Part shown: piece after piece, positions 7,248 to 19,922 of the stretch | Layout: the number at the start of each line of letters is the position of its first letter | How positions within the stretch are numbered: position 1 is the first letter of the stretch | From: a virus | Strand: one strand, 5' to 3' | DNA length: 20,211 nucleotides | Virus record (IMG/VR): IMGVR_UViG_3300031673_004602 | Coordinates: 1-20,211 of that record | Position numbers and translations under genes: made by a program | The notes under the pieces: model-generated | The model's input: only the letters and a program-made list of their open reading frames with translations | Database searches by the model: none | Told to the model about the DNA's origin: nothing

Positions 7248-8921
7248 TTACTGTCCCTGTGAGGCCATCATGTCTTTAAATGCTTGTTTAGACATTGCCA
7301 ATTGATTTTCAAGACCACTATCACGAGGTGTAACAACGATCCCACCCAAAGTAATAAGCAGTGAAGCAACTGATAATGCATTGCCAATAGCAACTCTTGC
7401 AACCTTAGCTGGCTCTATAATTCCAGCTTCATAAGGATTAACAAGTTTATGCAAGTTAGCATCAAATATGGTATCACCCTTAATTAAAGGGTATATTGCA
7501 TCAAAACTTTCACCGCAATTTTCCAATAACAATCTAAAAGGTTCTTTAAGAGCTTGAACCATAATATTCCAAGATGGTTTGTATGCTGGGTGCTTCTCTA
7601 TCAACTTTGCTAATTCAATTTGAACTTTACATCCACCAGCTATATATCCTTCAGCAATTGCTGAGCGAACAGCTTCAACAGCATCTTCTACTCGGGCTTT
7701 ACGCTCTCTCACTTGAAGATCAGATACACCACCTACGTAGATGGTAGAGATGCCGCCAGTTAATTTTGCAATATTGGCGCGAACATGCATCTTGTCCATA
7801 TCAGAAAAGCAAGAGTCCTCGATAGCCTTTAGTTCGTTTAATCGGCTTTCTATGTCGTTAGGGTCCGAGAGAGAAGTGATGAAGGTCTCATACATATTGC
7901 ATTTAGCAAATGTAAATTGACCAAAAACAGTTTCGTCCATTTCATCAATATTAGAAGGATCAATAACTCTACCACCAGTATAGGCAGCCATATCTTCAAG
8001 GAATATAGTTCGTGAATTTGGCAAACCAGACCTAGGAGTCTTAACTGGGCATAGAGTAATTCCACCTTTAATATTTAAAGCCAATTTATCCATAACGGAA
8101 TCTGCAAAGTCATGAGCCATTATAATAAGAGGAGAACCATACATTTCAGTACCCTCAATAGCATCTTGAATATATGCTGTAACCTTGAGATCGTTGATGG
8201 ATCCATTGTAAAGGAATACATATCCGTTATCCATCTTAACTTGTTGGTTCGTCTTGTCGTTTATAAACATTGGACCTAGTTGTCCTAATTCTTTCAATCC
8301 AGATGTAATTATATAGCCATCGATATTCTCGACACGCATTTGATTGCCCTGTGCTTCTTCAATAAGAACTTTACCGTCATCACCGGCAGATAATACCGCT
8401 TCTACAACTACATTAGCAATACGAAGATCGCCATTAGCAGAAATAGTAGCTACATTCTTAAGCTTATCTTCGTTATCTACGGGTCGTGATTGCTTCTTAA
8501 TATAGGGAACAATGACATCTTCGTAAACGTCTTCAAGATCATTTACAATTCTCTGTGGATTGTATTTCGCATTTTCTCTTACAAAGTTTTGACCGTGTTT
8601 AACTATAGCATTAGCTAACACGATGGCTGTAGTTGTACCGTCACCAGCATCTTTGGCTGTATTGATACAGATTTCTTTGGCAGCTTCTATAATAATATTA
8701 TTTTCAGCTTTATCCATGCCTAAAGCCTTAGCTACAGTAACACCATCTTTTGTAGCTAAAGGCGGAAGTCCGTCTCGCTCAATAAGAACAGCATTTCCGC
8801 CAGGTCCAAGAGTTGAACCTACACTAGTAGCCATAATATCTAAGGTCTTGCTGACAATACTAGCAAGTCGCTCCTTATCGGCAATTATATCTTTGGCTTT
8901 GCTTTTCTCGTAAAGTGACAT
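7248..8921 (-). CDS. groL: Phage-encoded GroEL-type (group I) chaperonin
   Basis: 557 aa, full length (E. coli GroEL has 548). Equatorial ATP-site motifs are present: STLGPGGNAVLI (about 36-47, normally LGPKGRNVV), ATKDGVTVAK (56-65) and AGDGTTTA (92-99). The intermediate-domain stretch RVEDAVEAVRSAIAEGYIAGG keeps the Asp equivalent to GroEL D398, while the usual GGG is GGC. The C-terminus lacks the GGM-repeat tail. The family folds proteins in an ATP-driven double or single ring; phage versions (for example from phages EL and OBP) fold phage proteins and can work without a co-chaperonin. No GroES-like gene is visible here. ATG at 8921 follows GGAGG by four bases. It sits in the long unit with dUTPase and methyltransferase-like genes. 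Confidence 0.95.
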   Translation of the reverse strand: MSLYEKSKAKDIIADKERLASIVSKTLDIMATSVGSTLGPGGNAVLIERDGLPPLATKDGVTVAKALGMDKAENNIIIEAAKEICINTAKDAGDGTTTAIVLANAIVKHGQNFVRENAKYNPQRIVNDLEDVYEDVIVPYIKKQSRPVDNEDKLKNVATISANGDLRIANVVVEAVLSAGDDGKVLIEEAQGNQMRVENIDGYIITSGLKELGQLGPMFINDKTNQQVKMDNGYVFLYNGSINDLKVTAYIQDAIEGTEMYGSPLIIMAHDFADSVMDKLALNIKGGITLCPVKTPRSGLPNSRTIFLEDMAAYTGGRVIDPSNIDEMDETVFGQFTFAKCNMYETFITSLSDPNDIESRLNELKAIEDSCFSDMDKMHVRANIAKLTGGISTIYVGGVSDLQVRERKARVEDAVEAVRSAIAEGYIAGGCKVQIELAKLIEKHPAYKPSWNIMVQALKEPFRLLLENCGESFDAIYPLIKGDTIFDANLHKLVNPYEAGIIEPAKVARVAIGNALSVASLLITLGGIVVTPRDSGLENQLAMSKQAFKDMMASQGQ

Positions 8922-13104: not shown

Positions 13105-13180
13105 TGGAGGTTCTGAGGGGAATCGAACCCCCGACGCACCTTTTTAGAGAAGGCCGCTCTGACCGCTGAGCTACAGAACC
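13105..13180 (-). tRNA. Amber-suppressor tRNA (anticodon CUA), CCA encoded
   Basis: The minus strand folds as a complete 76-base tRNA. Acceptor stem GGTTCTG/CAGAACC is 7 of 7. D stem is GCTC/GAGC with loop AGCGGTCA. Anticodon stem is GCCTT/AAGGT (one G-U) with a seven-base loop CTCTAAA. Variable loop is GCGTC. T stem is GGGGG/CCCCT with loop TTCGATT. Discriminator is U73, then encoded CCA at 13107-13105. With U33 in place the anticodon is positions 34-36, at 13147-13145: CTA, which reads the codon UAG. This is therefore a suppressor-type tRNA. The identity elements do not let me name the amino acid (Gln is the usual choice in amber-recoding phages; U73 is not typical of bacterial Gln tRNA). 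The 5' end lies exactly six bases after a TATAAT. Confidence 0.9.
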
Positions 13181-13193: not shown

Positions 13194-13487
13194 TAATCTA
13201 TAATTATCCAACATATCTGGGATGCCATCTGTACCAAGTATAGCCAATGCAGTTATCTCATTATCTATATCTGGTTCATAGAAAGGCATGTAAGGAGCTC
13301 CTTTCTTTAGAGCTCCTTCCATATTGTTGTAAAGATCCCAATCTCCAGGAGATCTTAGATATACAAGTATTCCATTCTTCCATTCTGTATCTTTATGAAA
13401 GAGTAGGAACTCAGCTACAGCATGTCCAGCTTGAACAGCTTGCTGAGACTTAGATAAGTCACTCCGCACTAATACATACAGCTTCAT
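13188..13487 (-). CDS. PTH2-like (peptidyl-tRNA hydrolase 2 family) protein, 99 aa
   Basis: The N-terminus MKLYVLVRSDLSKSQQAVQAGHAVAEFLLF follows the PTH2 pattern: a first strand, then a 'K..aaQagHA' helix with the catalytic-type His22-equivalent in AGHA. A middle strand (NGILVYLR) and late strand (ITALAILGT) complete the alpha/beta fold. It is slightly short (archaeal and eukaryotic PTH2 domains are about 115-120 aa). The family frees tRNA from peptidyl-tRNA dropped by ribosomes, although many short bacterial and phage members are untested. ATG at 13487 follows GGGGG by about six bases and overlaps the preceding gene by 29 bases. It ends seven bases before the suppressor tRNA, which makes a translation-linked role attractive but unproven. 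Confidence 0.65.
   Translation of the reverse strand: MKLYVLVRSDLSKSQQAVQAGHAVAEFLLFHKDTEWKNGILVYLRSPGDWDLYNNMEGALKKGAPYMPFYEPDIDNEITALAILGTDGIPDMLDNYRLV
13292..13318. repeat. 9-bp perfect inverted repeat inside the PTH2-like gene
   Basis: AAGGAGCTC (13292-13300) and GAGCTCCTT (13310-13318) are perfect complements around a nine-base loop, and GGAGCT is also a direct repeat encoding two Gly-Ala pairs. It lies within the coding sequence (GALKKGAP) and could form an mRNA hairpin; it may be only a by-product of the repeated codons. Confidence 0.35.
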
Positions 13488-13764
13488 TCTGTTCCCCCTT
13501 TACTTTCTCGACTAAAGCTTCTGCTTGCTTCCAAACATACTTCTTTTCATCCAATTTATCGGGTTTCCATCTATTCTCTATTTGTTCGGGGGATCTACCC
13601 CTAAGTAGACAATAGGCTATATGCTCTATCCTATATCTCATTTGTATAGAACCTAGACCAGATACATATCCGTTTTCACATTGTTTTCTTGTTGATTTAA
13701 GAGATCTTATTTCTAGAGCTCTCTCTTTTTGCTCTTGTTTCATTGATTTGATTTTTGTCTTCAT
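13459..13764 (-). CDS. Hypothetical basic protein, 101 aa
   Basis: ATG at 13764 with GGAG seven bases upstream; the stop TGA lies within the PTH2-like gene (29-base overlap). The product is Lys/Arg/Glu-rich and helical. About residues 1-30 form a strongly charged helix (KSMKQEQKERALEIRSLKS), then a compact part GLGSIQMRYRIEHIAYCLLRGRSPEQIENRW that looks like a small helix-turn-helix or an HHE-type pair, then KKYVWKQAEALVEKVKGE. A nucleic-acid-binding role is possible from charge alone. No family recognised. The 112-base gap upstream holds only a ribosome site followed by ATG AAA TAG. Confidence 0.7.
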   Translation of the reverse strand: MKTKIKSMKQEQKERALEIRSLKSTRKQCENGYVSGLGSIQMRYRIEHIAYCLLRGRSPEQIENRWKPDKLDEKKYVWKQAEALVEKVKGEQNEAVCISAE

Positions 13765-18977: not shown

Positions 18978-19922
18978 TTAAGACTCTAAAGCCTTTATAA
19001 CAACATAACCACTTCCACCGTCACCACCATTACCACCAGAGTAAGTTGCATTCCCTGCACCGCCGCCCCCTCCGCCACCAGCACTAGAATTTGCATTGGC
19101 TGCTGTTCCAGAAAAACCATTGCCTGTACTTGCAATTCCAAGTCCCCCAATACCGCCGGCTTTAAAACCAGAACCACCAGAACCACCACAGCCACCAAGT
19201 GTAGAGCCAGATACACCAGGTGTTCCACTTGCAAAGTTTGACCATCCCCCATTACCACCATTACCAGAAGAAGAACCAGCTCCGCCACTTCCACCACCGC
19301 CAGCTCCACCAAATGGTTCATGTGCTGCAGCACCACCGGCACTTGTACCAGCTGCAGAACCGTTACTGCCGCCACCGCCATTTGCCCAAAATGAAGCTCC
19401 GCCGCCGCCACCGCCGCCGCTATTAGAACCTACACCGCCACCGCCGCCGCCAGAATGAAGACTTGTACTTCCACCAGATGCTCCAGATGCTCCAGCAACA
19501 GTTCCTCTACCGCCATACCCACCACCAGCACCACCTTCAGCAAGAAGATTTACTCCAGTTCCAGTTATGGTTGTATCAGTTCCAGCAGAACCTGATGTTC
19601 CATTGTTACCACTAACCCCTACTCCTGCTATACCACCAACACCAATTGTTATTGTTAAGATGTCTAATGGGATAACATTAATAAGTTGATCAAATATTAA
19701 TTGGCCTGCACCACCACCACCAGCTCCACCGCCATGAACGGCTGCAGCAGTTCCACCACCACCACCACCAGCTCCACCAGCTCCGCCATAAGTAATAGAA
19801 AGTTGTGTGACACCCTCGGGAACTACAAATGTATCGTCAGAAAGAAATTCTTGCACTAAGATTAGTTCTTTAGCAATTGCTTTGATATTTTCTTTACTTC
19901 TAGATAGTTTTAAATCTGCCAT
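18978..19922 (-). CDS. Glycine-rich tail-fibre tip / adhesin
   Basis: 314 aa. The first 45 residues are ordinary (MADLKLSRSKENIKAIAKEL, then FLSDDTFVVPEGVTQLSITY). From about 46 to 300 the chain is dominated by Gly runs with Ala, Ser and Asn, broken by short hydrophobic stretches (LINVIPLDILTITIGVGG, AEGGAGGGYGGRG, HEPFGGAGG). It ends GGSGYVVIKALES, the common ending of phage glycine-rich domains. 'F.VP.GVT.l.i...GaGGgGG' at the start is also typical of this domain, used at tail-fibre tips to bind host receptors through polyglycine sandwiches, as in T-even gp38-like adhesins. ATG at 19922 follows AAAGGA; a GTATAAT motif lies 19 bases upstream. Confidence 0.85.
   Translation of the reverse strand: MADLKLSRSKENIKAIAKELILVQEFLSDDTFVVPEGVTQLSITYGGAGGAGGGGGGTAAAVHGGGAGGGGAGQLIFDQLINVIPLDILTITIGVGGIAGVGVSGNNGTSGSAGTDTTITGTGVNLLAEGGAGGGYGGRGTVAGASGASGGSTSLHSGGGGGGVGSNSGGGGGGGASFWANGGGGSNGSAAGTSAGGAAAHEPFGGAGGGGSGGAGSSSGNGGNGGWSNFASGTPGVSGSTLGGCGGSGGSGFKAGGIGGLGIASTGNGFSGTAANANSSAGGGGGGGAGNATYSGGNGGDGGSGYVVIKALES

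Follow-up and report, generated by a model that had tools for sequence, protein, structure and literature searches.

Amber-suppressor tRNAs paired with PTH2-like genes in phages, and an in-frame TAG in some of the partner genes

Why does a phage whose genes read intact under the standard code carry a tRNA for a stop codon? The window studied here, by which we mean the whole stretch of DNA analysed, is an entire IMG/VR record of 20,211 bases, and it raises this question with a single tRNA. Suppressor tRNAs without evident recoded genes have been described in Xanthomonas phage XacN1, where a read-through search found no target (PMC5852040), and in Agrobacterium phage Atu_ph07, with the anticodon UCA (PMC6102473). 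Both papers also list peptidyl-tRNA hydrolases, with no link drawn to the suppressor.

A CUA tRNA among standard-code genes

ARAGORN and Rfam find one tRNA in the whole window (Table 1). With 61.3 bits (E 2.4e-11), the Rfam match to RF00005 (13108-13180, minus strand) is above the gathering score of 29, and the fold is an ordinary cloverleaf with all stems paired and an anticodon stem of 5 bp. A preliminary description made from the letters had proposed a complete, paired tRNA with the loop CTCTAAA, the anticodon CUA and an encoded CCA; both programs agree, and neither the tRNA finder nor the covariance model shifts the anticodon away from CUA. What was found is thus what defines an amber suppressor tRNA, a complete tRNA fold with a CUA anticodon. 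ARAGORN labels it tRNA-Pyl solely from the anticodon. A pyrrolysine identity was rejected, since tRNAPyl has a 6-bp anticodon stem and this cloverleaf is ordinary; no PylS or other pyl-like gene was seen among the window proteins examined. The discriminator is U73 as first described, and it varies among relatives (A, U, G). The evidence supports a genuine phage-encoded tRNA that reads UAG by its predicted anticodon, its amino-acid identity being left open, as it was in the preliminary description.

The 30 complete genes of the window end in TAA (23), TGA (4) or TAG (3), and an in-frame TAG occurs in no gene of the window; all are intact under the standard code. This matches the earlier count of at least three TAG-ended genes and no in-frame UAG. 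Extensions past the terminal TAG in these genes were checked, and none is conserved. The in-frame extension of PhoH proves to be the following gene, which encodes an HNH protein and starts from an ATG of its own, and long extensions of TAG-ended genes in the window group are likewise mostly the next gene with its own start, so that read-through of these genes was rejected. TAG-read segments were also compared all against all, but antisense shadows dominated the result, which was discarded. A promoter, 'TAGTATAAT', seemingly common to two TAG-ended genes was also dropped, its match frequency being no higher than chance. Conserved genes crossed by many in-frame TAGs, the mark of code 15, were seen neither in the window nor in its longer relatives.

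Two other window genes may be recorded here. The gene at 7248-8921 (minus strand) encodes a phage GroEL whose closest isolate counterpart, in Myxococcus phage Mx1, shares only about 33% identity with it, and the gene at 18978-19922 (minus strand) encodes a very glycine-rich protein of 314 aa, probably structural.

A PTH2-like neighbour and its cassette

The gene adjoining the tRNA went unrecognised in the preliminary description. Its stop codon is separated from the tRNA start by 7 nt, and its 99-aa product matches phrog_3668, annotated 'hydrolase' (E 2.4e-7), and phrog_1866. The AlphaFold model (pLDDT 97.1) aligns over its full length with Pth2/Bit1 structures (Foldseek E 4.8e-7; VIA Z 15.6 to human Bit1, 1q7s), Z running from 14.6 to 15.6 and rmsd from 1.8 to 2.0 over 1q7s, 1xty and 2zv3; the predicted fold is therefore that of a complete PTH2. 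The phage protein differs from this family (PF01981) in its low identity (16-26%), in a Pfam score of 15.1 bits, below the gathering score of 23, and in the lysine of the GK-x2-AQ motif, which is replaced in PTH2-like proteins, mostly by Q or Y, while the Gln and His that follow this position are nearly invariant. Because the lysine is not conserved we file the protein as PTH2-like rather than PTH2, and because it is replaced, peptidyl-tRNA hydrolysis is uncertain. Scans for cellular homologues, which reach close relatives only, gave a single hit, on a Saprospiraceae MAG contig, for one PTH2-like clade and none for the other, so within that reach the family appears mainly phage-borne.

Neither DNA matching nor the DnaB-like helicase found a close isolate relative of the window phage; the helicase did find relatives at 14 IMG/VR loci. 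In five of these phages a CUA tRNA lies on the strand opposite the helicase, at a distance of a few kb, with the discriminators A (G001), U (G005), U (G006), G/U (G010, two copies) and A (G012), against U in the window. The tRNA bodies differ greatly among the relatives, and the anticodon loop is nearly constant. A near-identical loop within very different bodies, at the same place in five related phages, takes the window tRNA beyond chance. An exact search of IMG/VR with the anticodon arm gave no match, the tRNA bodies diverging too fast for it.

Upstream of the PTH2-like gene, and overlapping it by 29 nt, is a 101-aa gene (u13459). The cassette of u13459, PTH2-like gene and CUA tRNA is present in all six CUA-bearing phages (G000, G001, G005, G006, G010 and G012), and in G006, G010 and G012 the two protein genes are fused. 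In G004 and G009 the region is complete, yet all three components are missing. G005 has 14 other tRNA matches at 106-111 kb, and its CUA tRNA stands alone beside the PTH2-like gene at 35 kb, about 70 kb away. A second tRNA-like RNA was noted upstream of the fused gene (Table 1); its anticodon arm is over-long and no anticodon is clear (ARAGORN gives aaa, taaa, tc, gga or tga). L077, L081, L084, L090, L094 and L111 have it too, some 730 nt upstream of where PTH2 ends.

Table 1. Positions of the cassette features in the window and of the second tRNA-like RNA in two relatives
Feature	Position	Strand	Basis
tRNA, anticodon CUA, loop CUCUAAA, U73, encoded CCA	13105..13180	-	ARAGORN, Rfam RF00005
Anticodon CTA, tRNA positions 34-36	13145..13147	-	ARAGORN anticodon start at position 34
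PTH2-like protein (predicted fold), 99 aa	13188..13487	-	phrog_3668, phrog_1866, weak PF01981, AlphaFold, Foldseek/VIA
Small protein, 101 aa, motif R-x2-H-[IV]-A-x-C-x2-RGR	13459..13764	-	alignments, tblastn neighbourhood, fused relatives
Second tRNA-like RNA	L026:1501-1581 (G010:7284-7364)
Second tRNA-like RNA	L024:1501-1579 (G012:4785-4863)	-

Stop-anticodon tRNAs beside PTH2-like genes

An alignment search for the PTH2-like protein gave 80 IMG/VR loci; further queries, isolates and huge-phage records brought the set to 111 distinct domains, nearly all from phages. Of 98 stop-anticodon tRNAs, mostly CUA with a few UUA, 85 are no more than 1 kb from the PTH2-like gene and share its strand, where 19.5 were expected; sense tRNAs show no such enrichment (62 of 351 within 1 kb, against 62.5 expected). 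By locus, 90 carry a stop-anticodon tRNA (the nearest being CUA in 86 and UUA in four), and in 80 of these it is within 1 kb, always on the same strand. These are linkage counts among related sequences, which are not independent, and should not be read as probabilities. As a control, 31 PhoH-centred windows from the same collection held no stop-anticodon tRNA.

The pairing could be a by-product of tRNA clusters, and some loci do lie within tRNA arrays. The suppressor is however the sole tRNA in 26 loci, and a cluster effect should have enriched sense tRNAs as well. G028 has only one tRNA in 98 kb, and its anticodon is CUA. In LR745208 (L173) a UUA tRNA lies directly downstream of the PTH2-like gene. 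XacN1 has a PTH2-like gene too; a search to 4 kb from it found no tRNA. Several loci have two tandem CUA tRNAs beside one PTH2-like gene (L012:4657-4812; also L081, L094, L121 and L145), with bodies that differ within the pair in L012 and L094. The tRNA beside the PTH2-like gene at L110:5870-5941 seems to have an eight-base loop around CUA, and so does a tRNA in W04:279500-282500 (L413), which ARAGORN is unable to assign; such loops are read as ctaa or tcta.

The loop YUCUAAA is kept while the bodies and discriminators of the suppressor tRNAs vary freely, which fits a role where the inserted amino acid is irrelevant. The same pattern is expected under counter-defence or ribosome rescue, where the tRNA would serve as a decoy or as a replacement for cleaved tRNAs, and the PTH2-like protein would free peptidyl-tRNAs on jammed ribosomes. 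The PTH2 fold also agrees with such a role, and jumbo-phage PTH2 has been proposed as a ribosome rescue factor by Iyer et al. 2021, who do not discuss suppressor tRNAs (PMC7824862). Rescue leaves unexplained why stop-anticodon tRNAs alone are enriched and why the partner gene has an in-frame TAG (see below), and we regard it as unlikely. None of the open-licence papers examined connects suppressor tRNAs with peptidyl-tRNA hydrolases.

An in-frame TAG in the partner gene

About one third of the 111 PTH2-like domains carry exactly one in-frame TAG; in the same pipeline neither TAA nor TGA occurs in frame in any of them. In nine distinct genes the TAG is in mid-domain (L079, L093, L095, L099, L104, L116, L131, L149 and L235), and a separate tool reported '1 TAG' and no other stop in eight of these. 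In 28 others it comes early, as ATG, one or two codons and TAG directly before the domain. The early count was 29 before Cane17 was dropped, the GTG of its ATG-TAG-GTG being the annotated normal start. Tenacibaculum phage pT24 has an early TAG with a longer spacer. Eight of the nine mid-gene TAGs are followed by a purine, and most of the early ones by A. In the tree the mid-gene TAGs turn up on scattered branches; the early TAG, by contrast, belongs largely to a single lineage that has retained it, so the early ambers represent few independent events.

Together with the cluster by-product discussed above, the TAGs might be put down to assembly errors or decaying genes. Errors or decay should produce TAA and TGA too, and the TAG is carried by two sequenced isolates, pT24 and Acinetobacter phage ME3, which makes an assembly error unlikely in both. 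We give this combined account hardly any credence.

A second account treats the early ATG-x-TAG as a leader mini-ORF, with the PTH2-like protein started at the next AUU by termination and re-initiation, and the tRNA linkage as a separate matter. AUU is a known weak start codon (infC), and ATT directly follows the early TAG in 22 cases (ATA in two, ATC in two). Some early cases continue instead with AGC or AAT, the early class uses TAG only and never TAA or TGA, and the nine mid-domain TAGs are left unexplained. Apart from a few genes (L140, L246), the first usable start after the early TAG falls within the first strand or past it. Re-initiation strikes us as improbable.

A third possibility is that part of the genome uses UAG as a sense codon, as in crAss-like or Lak phages, the PTH2-like gene being one of many with UAG. 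The Prevotella Lak phages, which use code 15, do have a PTH2-like gene (L161, L162), and a UUA tRNA lies roughly 1 kb upstream of it; recoding in late genes had been raised for this locus in the preliminary description. That suggestion found no support. The window, its longer relatives and the amber-bearing phages keep full-length standard-code ORFs; ORF lengths, computed for six of the eight amber-bearing records named below, do not increase when TAG is read, which gains no more than reading TGA. TAG-split genes show no genome-wide excess in eight amber-bearing records (ME3, G013, G014, G015, G017, G018, G019 and G020). We think recoding very improbable. With the standard code kept elsewhere in the amber-bearing phages, only the PTH2-like gene stands out clearly as requiring that UAG be read. 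Read-through as a use of the tRNA, also suggested at first, is thus borne out by relatives, though in an unexpected place, the partner gene; the window's own PTH2-like gene has no in-frame TAG, and the window phage shows only the linkage and the fold.

Two observations from these scans are given for the record. Another candidate ATG-x-TAG start in ME3 is that of gp270 (165383, minus strand), 1.5 kb away from its PTH2-like gene; as a class such starts are no more frequent than chance, TAG showing no excess outside PTH2 in a genome-wide scan for ATG-x-stop. At G019:C1:52288 (plus strand) one TAG separates two ORFs of 188 and 248 aa in the same frame, the following start being 18 codons further along; together they may form a further read-through gene.

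Having weighed these alternatives, we think it probable that a suppressor tRNA for UAG, or rarely UAA, and a dedicated PTH2-fold protein form a linked two-gene phage module. Given what is established about suppression, the phage tRNA would be charged by host synthetases and would then read UAG during infection. An amber-bearing PTH2 gene would give intact protein only when charged suppressor is present. The protein may in turn bind and clear the peptidyl- or aminoacyl-tRNA of the suppressor, whereby the module would limit its own stop reading; this is the most speculative step. Production of the PTH2-like protein by amber suppression and its action on the peptidyl-tRNA of the suppressor are what we infer from the pairing and the in-frame TAG. 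Joined in a self-sensing circuit, in which the suppressor enables its amber partner and the partner clears the suppressor, they would set the level of UAG reading by negative feedback; we offer this circuit tentatively, as a possibility somewhat short of an even chance. Gating cannot be the sole purpose of the module, since about two thirds of the PTH2-like genes, that of the window included, have no amber. Two early-amber records (G027, W03) showed no CUA or UUA tRNA in the tRNA-rich stretches examined, and G020 and G017, with mid-gene TAG, are fragments without one.

The autoregulation of RF2 (prfB), by an in-frame stop and +1 frameshifting at UGA, is a similar case: close to its start, the gene for a translation factor is gated by the very stop codon that the factor deals with. 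Here the mechanism would be in-frame reading of UAG by the suppressor tRNA of the linked pair, in place of a frameshift. Code-15 phages (crAss-like, Lak) resemble the present ones in that a phage CUA or UUA tRNA reads a stop codon while the host code is standard; they differ in that here the phage's own genes are also in the standard code, a PTH2-like gene is linked to the tRNA, and it is in this partner that the UAG most clearly in need of reading is found. The components are of known kinds; their pairing and the amber in the partner are new as far as the open-licence papers examined show.

The purpose of suppressor tRNAs in standard-code phages is a standing question, for which a partner protein with its own amber gives a concrete target, testable in the cultured phages ME3 on Acinetobacter and pT24 on Tenacibaculum. 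If the module is real, it would be a new form of translational control, in which a tRNA and a tRNA-handling protein are joined through the codon that the tRNA reads.
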